From Oscillospiraceae bacterium (GTDB lineage Bacteria; Bacillota_A; Clostridia; Oscillospirales; Oscillospiraceae), in contig JAGAFT010000108.1 in the NCBI GenBank assembly GCA_017627975.1, forward strand, positions 1 through 11,443: a DNA stretch of 11,443 bases, given 5' to 3'. The first letter of the stretch is position 1, and every line of letters begins with the position of its first letter. The position numbers and the translations under genes were made by a program. The notes under the pieces are model-generated. The model had not been told where the DNA came from, searched no databases, and worked only from the letters and a program-made list of their open reading frames with translations. Positions 4,035-9,126 of the stretch are shown in pieces.

Positions 4035-4109
4035 CGGACACGGTTTCCCAGCGGACACGGGGACTGTTACCTCTGTCCGGGAGGACAGGGTGACCGTCCC
4101 CTGTGTCCG
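4035..4109. repeat. GGGGAC-type palindromic repeat, copy A
   Basis: A long hairpin spans 4052-4109. The left arm CGGACACGGGGAC...CTCTGTCC pairs with GGACAGGG...GTCCCCTGTGTCCG over a GGGA loop, with only small bulges and mismatches along about 27 pairs. A degenerate partial arm (CGGACACGGTTTCCCAG) precedes it at 4035-4051. It sits between the terminase stop and the portal's ribosome binding site. A near-identical element lies at 9019-9080. It has no T-run, so it is a mobile palindrome of REP/MITE type rather than a terminator, though it could stabilise or partition the transcript. Confidence 0.8.
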
Positions 4110-4143
4110 ACACGCCAGACGGTAAAACAATGAGGTACCCCAT

Positions 4144-5547
4144 TTGAATATTATCGAAAAACTCAAAGAACTCGGCTATACCACCGTTTCTCCGGATTGG
4201 TACCAGCTGATTGACCTCTGGGATGCGTGGTACAAGGGAACCGTCCGCGGCTTCCACGACTACCGTGTTTTTAATGGGATCAAGCACGTCCACTGCACCA
4301 AGCTGACTGCCGGCATGGCCAAATCCGTATCCGAAAACTGGGCGGATCTCCTGATGTCGGATAAGGTCAGCATCACTCTGGAGGGCACGGCGGAACAGAG
4401 CTTCTTCGACGCAATATGCGAGGCGAACAACTTTCACCAGCAGATGAACCGATACGAGGAATACTGTTTTGCGCTGGGAACCTCCGCCGTCGTCGCCCGC
4501 GTTACTGACATGAAGGTGGACGAAGAGGGGAGAGCCGTAAGCCCTGCGGGTGGCATCTGCCTTGACTATGTTCGGGCGGGTGAAATCTTCCCCCTCAGCT
4601 GGCGCAACGGCACCGTCCGCGAGTGTGCTTTTACCAGTTCTCACAGCTGCGGCGGCAGCAGCTTCGTTTATCTCCAGATCCATCACCTGGATGAAGATGA
4701 AAACTACGTGGTTGAAAACCACCTATTTCAGGAACTCAACGAAAACCTCCACGAAGTTCCGCTCGAATCCGTTCCGGCCTTCGCTGATGTCGCGCCGGTC
4801 TTCCACACCCACCAGGCCGAGCCGCTCTTCGTGCTGAATCGCCCAAACATTGCCAATAACCTGAATCCCGACATCCCGATGGGCGTCTCGATCTACGCCA
4901 ACGCCATCGACCAGCTCAAAAACTGTGACAATATCTTTGACAGCCTGAACTCCGAGTTTGTTTTGGGGCGCAAGCGGATCATGGTAAAGCCCGAGGCCCT
5001 GAAAAACCTGGACGGTGAACCCCTCTTCGACGCCAACGATCTGGTCTTCTACCTTCTCCCGGAGGATTCAAGCAATGGCTCCACCGTCAAAGAGATCGAA
5101 GCCAATCTCCGGACAGAGGAACATTTCACTGCTCTTCAGACTGCTTTGAACATGTTGGCCATCAAAACCGGCTTCGGATCCAATCACTGGAAGTTTGATT
5201 CCGGCCATATCACCACCGCAACCCAGGTGATCGCGGACAACTCGGAAGAGTACCGGACCCAGTGCAAGCACGAAATCGTCCTCGAACAGGTCCTGACCGA
5301 TCTGGCCCGCATCATCCTCCGACTCGGAAACGCATTCCTGGGCCAGAGCCTCAATGAGGAGGTCGAGATCTCCGTCGACTTTGACGCGTCCGTCATCGAA
5401 GACAAGACTGCCGACTTCGAGCGTGACTGCCGCATGCTGGAACTCGGCGTTCTGAGCAAGGAAGAGTTCCGGAGTAAATGGCTGAATGAGGATACAAAAA
5501 CAGCGGCCAAAGCAATTCATGAGATTCCCGACAAAGAAACGTCGTGA
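4144..5547 (+). CDS. Phage portal protein (SPP1 Gp6-like family)
   Basis: This 467-residue protein has the length and features of the SPP1 Gp6-type portal family. Portals form the 12-subunit ring at one capsid vertex through which the terminase pumps DNA. The N-terminal part (WYQLIDLWDAWYKGTVRGFH, then KLTAGMAKSVSENWADLLM) matches the usual opening of the family. The middle includes SIYANAIDQLKNCDNIFDSL, the long helix region lining the channel, followed by KTGFGSNHWKFDSGHITTATQV. The C-terminal segment is helical. The TTG start at 4144 is chosen because GAGGT sits 7 bases upstream and no ATG fits. It follows terminase after the hairpin repeat. No minor head (MuF-like) gene follows it, unlike many related phages. 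Confidence 0.92.
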   Translation: MNIIEKLKELGYTTVSPDWYQLIDLWDAWYKGTVRGFHDYRVFNGIKHVHCTKLTAGMAKSVSENWADLLMSDKVSITLEGTAEQSFFDAICEANNFHQQMNRYEEYCFALGTSAVVARVTDMKVDEEGRAVSPAGGICLDYVRAGEIFPLSWRNGTVRECAFTSSHSCGGSSFVYLQIHHLDEDENYVVENHLFQELNENLHEVPLESVPAFADVAPVFHTHQAEPLFVLNRPNIANNLNPDIPMGVSIYANAIDQLKNCDNIFDSLNSEFVLGRKRIMVKPEALKNLDGEPLFDANDLVFYLLPEDSSNGSTVKEIEANLRTEEHFTALQTALNMLAIKTGFGSNHWKFDSGHITTATQVIADNSEEYRTQCKHEIVLEQVLTDLARIILRLGNAFLGQSLNEEVEISVDFDASVIEDKTADFERDCRMLELGVLSKEEFRSKWLNEDTKTAAKAIHEIPDKETS

Positions 5548-5550
5548 TCT

Positions 5551-5602
5551 GCGGGCTAAAGCACCTGCCCGCCATAAATTCTGAGACCAAAGCACCGGTC
5601 TC
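5551..5602 (+). promoter_or_regulatory. Tandem hairpins with identical AAAGCACC loops
   Basis: Directly after the portal stop there are two hairpins. In the first, GCGGGC (5551-5556) pairs with GCCCGC (5567-5572) around T-AAAGCACC-T. In the second, GAGACC (5583-5588) pairs with GGTCTC (5597-5602) around AAAGCACC. The stems are unrelated and perfectly paired, while the eight loop bases are identical, which is the pattern of selected RNA structure. The second hairpin ends only 7 bases before AAAGGAG, the scaffold gene's ribosome binding site. A cis-acting RNA element bound by a protein or other ligand, tuning scaffold/capsid translation, is the natural inference. I do not recognise a named RNA family. 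Confidence 0.7.
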
Positions 5603-5621
5603 TTGTCAAAGGAGTAATCCA

Positions 5622-6176
5622 ATGAGTTTATCCCGTACTGATCTCAAATTGATTGGGCTGAATGATGATCAGATTTCCTCTGTCATTGCTGCCCACAGCG
5701 AAACGGTTTCTGCGCTGAAGCAGAAATATTCCGAGCTGGAAACGAAGTACAGCAGCGCGAAAGAAAGCGCTGACCGTCTCCTGACCGTTCAGAAGGAATT
5801 GGACGAGCTGAAGAAATCCGACTTTAAGTCGATGTACGAATCCGAGCAGCGTGCCCATAACGCGCTGAAAGAATCTGTCTCCCGTGAGAAAGCCCGCACT
5901 GCCAAAGAAAAGGCAGCTCGCGCCTACTACGAGGGCAAAAACATCCGGGGCAATAATCTTGCCATTGCCATGCGCGGTACCGATCTGGATCAGCTGCAGC
6001 TGGACGATTCCGGCAACCTGGCTGATACTGCGGCCCTCGATGCTCTGGTTGAAGGCGACTTCAAGCCCCTGGTGACCACCCGCCGTACCGTATCCAGCGG
6101 CGGAACCCTGGCCGGTCATCCCGAGCCGACTTCTTCTTCCAATGAAGTCATGAATAGACTTTTCAGAGGACTTTAA
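5622..6176 (+). CDS. Phage capsid scaffold protein (Gp20-like)
   Basis: This 184-residue protein lies between portal and major capsid, where scaffold proteins are normally encoded. It is dominated by a long charged coiled coil (about residues 25-110: LKQKYSELETKYSSAKES, then VQKELDELKKSDFKSM and similar). A short globular segment with RGNNLAIAMRGTDLDQLQLD follows, then a low-complexity tail ending NEVMNRLFRGL. This is the layout of the phage minor structural Gp20/scaffold family, which guides capsid assembly and then leaves the head. The ATG at 5622 is used because AAAGGAG precedes it; a longer frame from 5544 would cross the tandem hairpins and lacks a binding site. It is preceded by those hairpins, which may control it. 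Confidence 0.88.
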   Translation: MSLSRTDLKLIGLNDDQISSVIAAHSETVSALKQKYSELETKYSSAKESADRLLTVQKELDELKKSDFKSMYESEQRAHNALKESVSREKARTAKEKAARAYYEGKNIRGNNLAIAMRGTDLDQLQLDDSGNLADTAALDALVEGDFKPLVTTRRTVSSGGTLAGHPEPTSSSNEVMNRLFRGL

Positions 6177-7148: not shown

Positions 7149-7537
7149 TGATAGCGGATTACGCTTTCTATTCTGGCGAATACTATGGGAAGCTCCTCTC
7201 CGAGGAGGAGTTTCCCGAGTACGCGACCCGCGCCGACGCCTACTTGGATCAGATGACAACCGGGAGGTATGCCTCTACGGATCTCTCCGAAAAGACTGTC
7301 CTTGCGGTGAAGTTCGCCGAATGTTCTGTTGCCGAACTATGCCGGCAGATGGCGGCTGACTCCGCTGAAAATCCTTCTTTCCTTGAGAAGGAAACTGTCG
7401 GCAGCCATTCCGTCGCCTATCGTGCCGCAAGTGACCTCGCCTCGTCCTGGTCTTCCCGGATCCGCGATGTGATCTATCTTTACCTCGCGCACACCGGCCT
7501 CCTGTACCGCGGCGCAATCCTGCAATTCAAGCTGTAA
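7148..7537 (+). CDS. Phage head-tail connector protein (Gp6/Gp15-type adaptor)
   Basis: This 129-residue protein starts within the TGATG overlap with the capsid stop. The N-terminal sequence FPEYATRADAYLDQMTTGRY and the helices that follow (KTVLAVKFAECSVAELCRQM) match the small helical connectors that dock under the portal. The central loop SFLEKETVGSHSVAY resembles the family's loop region, and the C-terminal half is a helix with YLYLAHTGLLYRG. Such connectors bridge portal and neck in siphophages. The position right after the major capsid gene supports the call; the exact family name is less certain. Confidence 0.82.
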   Translation: MIADYAFYSGEYYGKLLSEEEFPEYATRADAYLDQMTTGRYASTDLSEKTVLAVKFAECSVAELCRQMAADSAENPSFLEKETVGSHSVAYRAASDLASSWSSRIRDVIYLYLAHTGLLYRGAILQFKL

Positions 7538-7567
7538 TTGCTCATTGAACATTTCACATTTCACATT
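7537..7567. repeat. CATTTCA-type short intergenic repeat, copy 2
   Basis: ATTGCTCATT followed by AACATTTCACATTTCACATT, overlapping the last base of the connector stop codon, repeats the element at 158-196. The first copy has eight bases between the two blocks and this one has a single base. Confidence 0.5.
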
Positions 7568-7572
7568 GCGCA

Positions 7573-7622
7573 GGAGGTTTCCCGTGTATTGCCCCCACAC
7601 CGTTTCTCTCATAAATACGCAC
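7573..7622 (+). repeat. Duplicated gene start, copy 1 (decoy start)
   Basis: Fifty bases covering a GGAGGT ribosome binding site, a GTG start (7584) and 13 codons (MYCPHTVSLINTH) recur at 7667-7716 as the real start of the next gene. The last 31 bases (7592-7622) are identical to 7686-7716. Reading on from this first GTG leads out of the real frame into an unrelated 131-codon frame ending near 7981. This copy therefore looks like a vestigial or decoy start rather than a gene. Confidence 0.75.
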
Positions 7623-7656: not shown

Positions 7657-7677
7657 TGCTTTTCCCGGAGGTCTATT

Positions 7678-8136
7678 GTGTACACCCCCCACACCGTTTC
7701 TCTCATAAATACGCACGCTGGTCGCCAATACTTGGTCATCCTGCGCTCTGTGATGCTTCAGGCCCTGAACGGCCAGAGCGTCCAGCGCCGCGGAGATCAG
7801 GAAGAGACGAACGCAAATCTTTACGTCCCGCTCTCCGTCCGCGCGGAGAACGCGGCAGGGGAGCCCCTGACCTTCCTTCCGCCGCTGGAATACGCCCGCT
7901 GCCCGGAACCGGAAAAGCACTGGACCCTGCAGCCGGAAGGGCAAACCGCCGGCCGCTGCAGTTTCTTCGTGAAGGGTGAGATCCCGGAAGCCTGCTCCCT
8001 GGCCGAAGCGCGTGAGAAGTACGATTTCGTCTACATCGTCGCCGGCTGGCAGCTTCACGACTACGGAAGCCTTGCGCTTCAGCACTATGAGGTCGTGAGC
8101 AAGGTCTCTTCGAGGTATTACCAGTATGGAAATTGA
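7678..8136 (+). CDS. Phage head-tail joining protein (DUF6751-like)
   Basis: This 152-residue protein begins at a GTG with GGAGGT 5 bases upstream. The opening YTPHTVSLINTHAG, the segment YLVILRSVMLQALNGQSVQR, NANLYVPLSVRAEN and CSFFVKGEIPEA, and the ending LQHYEVVSKV, match a family found in many gut Firmicutes phages between the head connector and the tail genes; I associate it with DUF6751. It is probably a neck protein such as a head-closure or stopper component. Its 5' end is duplicated just upstream, giving a second ribosome binding site and start 94 bases earlier in a different frame. Its stop overlaps the next gene's start by 11 bases. Confidence 0.75.
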   Translation: MYTPHTVSLINTHAGRQYLVILRSVMLQALNGQSVQRRGDQEETNANLYVPLSVRAENAAGEPLTFLPPLEYARCPEPEKHWTLQPEGQTAGRCSFFVKGEIPEACSLAEAREKYDFVYIVAGWQLHDYGSLALQHYEVVSKVSSRYYQYGN

Positions 8137-9018: not shown

Positions 9019-9080
9019 GTCGGACACGGGGACTGTTTCATCTGTCCGGGAGGACAGTGTGACCGTCCCCTGTGTCCGAC
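9019..9080. repeat. GGGGAC-type palindromic repeat, copy B
   Basis: From GTCGGACAC to GTGTCCGAC this is a nearly perfect hairpin with a GGGA loop. Its arms differ from copy A (4052-4109) at only a few bases. It begins three bases after the major tail protein stop. As in copy A there is no T-run. Two nearly identical copies placed right after stop codons in one operon suggest mobile palindromes tolerated only between genes. Confidence 0.82.
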
Positions 9081-9126
9081 TCACCCTCGGTAATTCCACT
9101 TTTTATCTTCTGAAAGGTGAAAAACC

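Follow-up and report, generated by a model that had tools for sequence, protein, structure and literature searches.

Why should small RNA hairpins with a common loop stand in a row directly before the scaffold gene of a phage? This question is raised by 11,443 nucleotides (nt) of DNA from an Oscillospiraceae bacterium (contig JAGAFT010000108.1; this whole stretch is called the window here), in which a first-pass annotation, made from the letters alone, had pointed out two tandem hairpins with unlike stems and an identical 8-nt loop. Based on the results of this study, the hairpins are probably an autogenous translational operator that would be read by the N-terminal tip of the scaffold protein, a reading drawn from the comparison of sequences, mostly metagenomic. 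Related gut and rumen phages have the element in common, and the loop of the window, AAAGCACC, belongs to a looser class, RAAGNAYN.

The two hairpins, on the forward strand, were confirmed exactly as first described. Hairpin 1 (GCGGGC-UAAAGCACCU-GCCCGC, 5551-5572, stem arms 5551-5556 and 5567-5572) holds AAAGCACC at 5558-5565 with an unpaired U on each side, so that its loop reads UAAAGCACCU, and hairpin 2 (GAGACC-AAAGCACC-GGTCTC, 5583-5602, arms 5583-5588 and 5597-5602) holds it at 5589-5596. The loops start 31 nt apart in the 74-nt gap (5548-5621) between the portal stop codon and the scaffold ATG. The array, however, has three members in the window rather than two: hairpin 0 (CGAC-AAAGAAAC-GTCG, 5529-5544, loop 5533-5540, same strand) lies over the end of the portal gene and abuts its stop codon (5545-5547). 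The sequence AAAGCACC occurs in the window at hairpins 1 and 2 only, and its repetition by itself is only mildly unusual, because 7 of 200 dinucleotide-shuffled windows also had at least two copies. The region 5541-5640 folds at -27.9 kcal/mol against -19.2 +/- 2.9 (z -3.0), and 5521-5645 has a z of -3.5; none of 200 shuffles was equally stable in either case. In the minimum-energy fold an outer helix, P1, is predicted between 5574-5581 (AUAAAUUC) and 5624-5631 (GAGUUUAU) of the forward strand, the first base of the latter being the last base of the start codon. Another, shorter pairing, between AUUCU and GGAGU of the Shine-Dalgarno sequence, is the best complement in the flank test given below. 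The Shine-Dalgarno sequence of the same strand (AAAGGAG, 5608-5614) begins with six bases, AAAGGA (5608-5613), that match the loop core RAAGNA. The scaffold gene that follows (5622-6176, forward strand, ATG at 5622) encodes 184 amino acids of family PF06810 (E 2.7e-11), with arginine 5 (Arg5) encoded by CGT at 5634-5636.

For the wider comparison, scaffold genes were gathered with scaffold proteins as queries and with a hidden Markov model (HMM) run over the fetched loci. Near-identical leaders were dropped, which gave non-redundant scaffold sets of 95/115, 106/135, 134/194 and 152/223 depending on the analysis; start codons were assigned by script and are wrong for at least L115, L131 and L244. 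Of the 95 non-redundant scaffold loci, 44 carry, in the 330 nt before the gene, hairpins of four or more pairs whose 8-nt loop reads RAAGNA(A/C/T)N; these hairpins number 65 in all, against a mean of 2.1 and a maximum of 5 in 20 dinucleotide shuffles. RAAGNAYN loops lying up to 120 nt upstream of the scaffold were closed by at least four Watson-Crick pairs in 36 of 78 cases; elsewhere this held for 37 of 1924 on the same strand, and on the opposite strand for 2 of 784. The RAAGNAYN hairpin was present at 26 of the 54 loci with a scaffold score above 140 and at 2 of the remaining 41 (Bacillus, Listeria and others). A DNA pattern that joins the loop to the ribosome-binding region, GAAGAACN{4,9}CGAAGAAAAGGAG, searched with no protein input, matched 25 viral contigs, and in 24 of these, several being near-copies, a scaffold gene recognised by the HMM starts 6-12 nt downstream; the exception, L184, lies apparently within coding sequence. 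The element was also found in the annotated phage records of Butyrivibrio virus Ceridwen and Dulem virus 33 and in three unannotated faecal phage records. The scaffold gene of Ceridwen (L255 2501-3115; MN882553.2 6273-6887; protein QHJ73738.1) is annotated as 'fibronectin autolysin' and is a scaffold by the HMM used here. The early suggestion of translational control of the scaffold gains support from this concentration of hairpins before scaffold genes and from the recurrence of the motif at the ribosome-binding site. The single loop described at first is identical in hairpins 1 and 2 but is only one form of RAAGNAYN.

Hairpin 2 of the window was aligned with 51 other rows, and corresponds to the hairpin called P2 in the wider family. 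This alignment (A4) holds 52 of the 62 hairpin-bearing rows from 106 loci; L186, L139, L157, L154, L004, L126, L161, L005, L013 and L125 were left out. The order in it is the P2 hairpin with its 8-nt loop, RAAGNA merging into AAGGAG, and the 3' strand of P1. The closing pair of P2 is C-G in 49 of the 52 rows, and its pairs are seen as GC, CG, AU and UA in these rows, which were preselected for at least three pairs. At the Shine-Dalgarno sequence of the relatives, RAAGNA stands directly before or overlaps AAGGAG; this copy is unpaired, and in most rows has no inverted repeat of its own. Among 98 loci with P2, motif hairpins number one in 38, two in 54, three in 5 and four in 1. An additional motif hairpin lies farther upstream in 61 of the 98, and 34 of these 61 are followed by a stretch that a loose rule counts as T-rich; it may be conjectured that the terminator-like upstream copies of some phages add an effect on transcription. 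P1 pairing played no part in the choice of rows. In the fixed register 48.1% of the cells were paired (49.2% at slide -3 and 47.8% at slide -1), and the covariation of 0.283 was above that of all 500 shuffles, with slides -1 and +2 near it (0.272 and 0.271). In a register-free test of flank complement at 60 loci the mean was 4.73, against 3.88 with partners exchanged (maximum 4.17 in 200 draws). These values point to an outer helix that would begin at the Shine-Dalgarno motif copy. Within 117 scaffold genes, motif loops in the opening 60 nt were paired in 7 of 25 cases, against a mean of 0.38 and a maximum of 3 in synonymous-codon controls (n=300); the seven have the peptide LTEEQV in common and are partly related sequences. 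They are in-frame hairpins with the loop GAAGAACA over the LTEEQV codons, 24-60 nt inside the scaffold gene (L116, L118, L131, L133, L134, L146 and L151), and could possibly be a further binding site.

The array is retained in the close relatives of the window. Relatives of its portal protein are mostly metagenome proteins, the best match in the genome collection being L007, an Oscillospiraceae bacterium from roe-deer stomach. L001, L004 and L007, with portals 86%, 72% and 71% identical to that of the window, all keep the array with altered stems, and a portal-end hairpin of the same loop class is present in all three. At the positions of hairpins 1 and 2, L007 has GCGGATC-AACGCACC-GATCCGC and GAGGCA-AAAGCACC-TGCCTC; L004 has three hairpins of its own. 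L001 shows one compensatory stem change from A-U to G-C, but also one A.C mismatch that breaks a pair in hairpin 2, and its hairpin 1 loop, AAAGCAUC, has one base changed. Selection on RNA structure and loop, as proposed at first, is supported by compensated stem changes with a retained loop class. Among named phages, no DNA relatives of window 5500-5700 were found. A search of seven genomes or records for the exact tandem AAAGCACC gave two places, both in G004, with no array-like hairpins seen in the flanks inspected. Model R1, built on the window, matched 11 of 32 sources at E<=0.01, mostly model members or near-copies; L001, which is outside the model, was matched at 26.2 bits. Over 391 genomes of the class to which the genome of L007 belongs, R1 gave 9 matches at E<=0.01, with about 4 expected by chance from rough E-values, and none of the nine matched stretches (1.6-3.1 kb) had a scaffold reading frame by HMM.

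Which protein could read such an element? Its presence follows the scaffold N-terminus: it was found at 84 of the 108 loci whose N-terminal HMM score reaches 15 and at 1 of the 26 that score lower, the latter being L111, with an upstream hairpin. Nine loci of Bacillus, Listeria and Clostridia type reach that score (16-41) without the element, and so do some close types, among them L102 and L095. The first-pass annotation had thought of feedback by a capsid or scaffold protein, and natural exchanges favour the scaffold over the capsid, which was taken in this comparison as the next long reading frame with its family not checked. L096 and L160 are 89% identical in both scaffold N-terminus and scaffold body and both have the element, and their capsid similarity is unconvincing (41% over 41 amino acids). 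Conversely, L111 and L224 are close to L160 in capsid (91% and 87%) and scaffold body (80% and 77%) and differ from it in N-terminus and leader, and L130, with 70% capsid and 83% scaffold body identity to L160, has a different N-terminus and GAGACA sites. Between L175 and L202 the N-terminus is alike (68%) and little else is (body 27%), and motif hairpins are present in both.

The same preference comes from residue 5 of the scaffold compared with loop position 4 of P2 at 100 loci: Arg5 with G4 in 82, another residue with A4 in 16, another residue with G4 in 2, and Arg5 with A4 in none (Fisher p 1e-16, not corrected for kinship). This table omits rows with no P2 found, with an N-terminus off the pattern (L019, L020, L042) or with a protein below 140 amino acids, as well as L102 and L066, removed by hand, and 15 rows with Glu (14) or Gly (L131) at residue 5; among the 14 Glu5 rows, five have an ACGGRACC loop, with G4, and one has GAGTGAAC. 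Loop positions 1 (purine) and 6 (A) are not evidence, because the P2 finder required them. In L139, L154, L157 and L150 the stems are bulged, and the loops were therefore added manually. Position 5 of the 82 Arg-class loops is A in 56, G in 11, C in 10 and U in 5. A tree built without the first 10 residues contained five supported independent contrasts, of which four agree with the association, none is against it and one is neutral. Arg5 is encoded by all six arginine codons, and the complementarity of the loop to the gene start shows no excess (4.29 vs 4.30); therefore the link is not one of RNA-RNA pairing at the gene start, and loop pairing with the coding region was ruled out as its cause on the same values.

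Free drift of the loop had been named at the outset as a sign against the element, and drift was indeed seen in part: distant relatives have RAGG, RAUG and RAGACA classes, besides the single base changed in L001. The RAUG and RAGACA drifts, however, are mostly joint with the Shine-Dalgarno copy. Over 78 loci, loop and copy agree in 5 of 7 cases where either shows RAUG and in 1 of 2 for RAGA; these six agreements outside RAAG were reached in none of 10000 permutations, which carry no kinship correction. The variant site CCGAGACAAAGGAG ahead of an ATG was met in 84 contigs; together with loci already collected, this makes 70 distinct places, of which 19 are scaffold by HMM. All 19 GAGACA-site scaffold loci, some being near-copies, have A at position 4 of the P2 loop and no Arg at residue 5, with the loops GAGACA (11), AAGACA (4), GATATA (2), GATACA (1) and AGGACA (1). 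The variant CCGATGAAAAGGAG was found in 34 contigs at 32 distinct places; the loops at its seven scaffold loci are AATGAA (4), GATGGA (1) and AGAGAA (1), none being found at the last. The scales tip slightly towards a recognition code on these comparisons. The scaffold tip would then be an RNA-binding module whose Arg5 reads loop G4, the operator language would have switched repeatedly, and the leader would respond to free scaffold and thereby fix the ratio of scaffold to capsid. The languages proposed are Arg5 with RAAGNA, and Ile, Val, Gln, Asn or Pro with RAGACA, loops and Shine-Dalgarno copy changing together.

Several observations weigh against the operator and its proposed reader. L102 and L095 have N-termini of the Arg5 type and lack the element, and 2 of the 18 non-Arg rows retain G4 (L139, L154). 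The RAGG loops match the Shine-Dalgarno copy in 0 of 9 cases, so that this drift is not joint, and loop and copy are of unlike classes in L200 and L245. With only five contrasts the sign test (p 0.125) was unable to reach 0.05. The array of L007 lies at least 163 nt upstream of the assigned scaffold start; the scaffold starts of L004 and L007 are possibly eight codons earlier (P0205). Model R1 missed the hairpin-bearing L004, L005, L007 and L013. The predicted scaffold N-terminus resembles no known RNA-binding fold. Moreover, the leader and the N-terminal codons adjoin, and linkage can therefore mimic covariation; co-inheritance of the leader with the adjacent N-terminus is the main confounder.

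This linkage is the core of a rival explanation, in which the operator is real and translational but has another reader, such as the capsid, another phage protein or a host RNA-binding protein. The N-termini of types B and D, which resemble exchanged modules, fit it as well as the few contrasts do. It is nevertheless unlikely, considering that L096 and L160 keep the element despite the unconvincing similarity of their capsids, that L111 and L160 differ in their leaders with capsids 91% identical, and that within one N-terminal type a change of LTR to LTQ, LTN or MKP accompanies G4 to A4 (L298, L301, L320, L356, L328); nor is there reason to expect that a host factor tracks a phage protein. The hairpins could also act without a dedicated protein, in termination or attenuation, in mRNA stability or processing, or as insulation of the ribosome-binding site. 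Stable hairpins commonly adjoin start codons, and the T-rich stretches behind 34 of the 61 upstream motif hairpins would suit this reading; but no T run follows hairpins 1 and 2 of the window, and the common loop sequence, the Shine-Dalgarno copy and the Arg5 association are left unexplained, which makes this possibility improbable.

A feature of the DNA itself, either palindromes bound by a protein or a recombination boundary, would make the RNA folding a by-product and would agree with the fact that inverted repeats form on both strands and with the exchange of phage modules in this region. The strand counts of P1 (G.U 32, expected 35.5; A.C 26, expected 33.8) show no clear preference for either strand. 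Such a DNA feature is very improbable in view of the rarely paired motif loops of the other strand, the Shine-Dalgarno copy without its own inverted repeat in most rows, and in-gene hairpins beyond the synonymous-codon expectation. Chance resemblance in a single window would suit the mild improbability of the loop repeat there, but is hardly credible beside the hairpin enrichment, the paired-loop counts, the 24 of 25 pattern matches and the variety of P2 pairs.

In the preferred reading, that of an operator read by the scaffold, the leader of the scaffold mRNA would be a multi-site operator. One to four hairpins would display the RAAGNA core single-stranded in their 8-nt loops, with a further unpaired copy at the Shine-Dalgarno sequence, where the outer helix would start. 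The scaffold tip, predicted as a short helix and carrying (A/S)-(L/F)-(T/S)-Arg5, would bind these copies, possibly several at once, as free scaffold accumulates. Bound scaffold would shut the leader over the ribosome-binding site and lower scaffold synthesis, and procapsid assembly, by drawing off scaffold, would relieve the block and close the feedback loop. A scaffold dimer would have two tips and might suit several sites. In an AlphaFold2 model from 34 sequences (mean predicted local distance difference test, pLDDT, 80; predicted template modelling score, pTM, 0.41) the scaffold looks like an N-terminal tip on an apparent coiled coil, with a helix at 5-10, a turn and a long helix at 15-105. 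A fold search of this model against solved structures gave nothing at E<=0.001. The sequence matches in solved structures (She3, E 6.6e-4; Nop5/Nop56; Rad50) are long coiled coils and were judged compositional. The quantity of scaffold must suit that of the capsid protein, and a conserved cis element, a candidate reader domain and two recognition classes are now in hand; since Ceridwen, the phage of a cultured rumen bacterium, has the element, the question is directly testable.

An undescribed RNA motif had been one of the first suggestions, and the searches are in line with it: Rfam 15 gave no match at the gathering threshold in the window, the best at E<=10 in 5500-5660 being Chlorobi-RRM on the minus strand (12.1 bits, threshold 45), and no family at the element in 20 relatives, the only matches being gut-2 in L013 and tRNA in L148, both elsewhere. 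The gut-2 RNA (RF02990, 40.8 bits, threshold 39.8) lies at L013 3281-3329, upstream of packaging genes in a related phage or prophage. A literature search, judged by titles and abstract starts and with most subscription papers outside its scope, gave no account of such an element.

The MS2/R17 coat hairpin, T4 gp32 and RegA are phage operators at the ribosome-binding region that are bound by the gene's own product. The proposed mode of action would be like theirs, the site, whether structured or unpaired, lying where ribosomes bind the regulated gene, and conserved RNA structure is found here too; for the RNA family and an RNA-reading scaffold tip, no description was found. Unlike in those operators, one core is repeated here in several loops and at the Shine-Dalgarno sequence, there are two recognition classes, and the putative reader is a scaffold protein. 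CsrA/RsmE sites need GGA in a hairpin loop and at the Shine-Dalgarno sequence. The element resembles them in its purine-rich core at both places and in several sites per leader, but was rejected as such a site, AAAGCACC having no GGA and loop position 5 being G in just 11 of the 82 Arg-class loops. TwoAYGGAY RNAs have two hairpins with AYGGAY loops and guanidine-II (mini-ykkC) RNAs two hairpins with ACGR loops. Both are small tandem hairpins with similar loops, as here, but the loop sequences differ: those of the window are AAAGCACC, AAAGCACC and AAAGAAAC, none of them AYGGAY and none containing ACGR, and there was no Rfam match to the guanidine-II riboswitch. TwoAYGGAY and ykkC-III are found as table entries in PMC2864571. 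The nearest precedent, by analogy, would be the scaffold gene of P22, reportedly controlled by its own product (Wyckoff and Casjens 1985, as cited for a regulatory role of scaffold in the 80alpha paper, PMC5744158).

Other scaffold genes have leaders of other kinds. Bacillus, Listeria A118 (L164) and other PF06810-like scaffold genes lack the RAAGNA element, and several of their own leaders, about 100 nt before the scaffold, look conserved, e.g., GACACGCTAAAAAACATTAAAAAGGAG in Bacillus (L059-L063, L068, L069, L071, L073-L075, L081-L083, L086, L164, L017, L028). These may be other scaffold operators. In L111, L155 and L224 the scaffold N-terminus is unrelated (MFDIDSIIKK..., MADFAEIIKS...) and the leader GGGTAGC(T/A)CCCGTAACAGCGAGAAAGG stands in place of the element; their upstream hairpin loops, GAAGCACA, GAATCACA and TTTT, look as if decaying.

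The gene order around the array, by Pfam and PHROGs, is terminase large subunit, SPP1-type portal, PF06810 scaffold, phage capsid and head-tail genes, the portal, scaffold and capsid genes being on the forward strand. The portal gene (SPP1 Gp6-like, PF05133, 4144-5547) carries hairpin 0 in its last codons, and the major capsid gene (PF05065, 6204-7148) lies downstream of the scaffold. Some repeats were also seen in the window. A 65-nt intergenic repeat at 4052-4116 and 9021-9085 (92% identical, CGGACACGGGGACTGT...GACCGTCCCCTGTGTCCG) has self-complementary ends and is like repetitive extragenic palindromic (REP) sequences. Repeats around CCCCACACCGTTTCTCTCATAAATACGCAC lie between head-tail genes at 7573-7622 and 7667-7716, with a partial copy near 1656 (1656-1669), and short AT-rich repeats, ATTTCACATTTCACATT, occur at two far-apart sites, 158-207 and 7537-7572.
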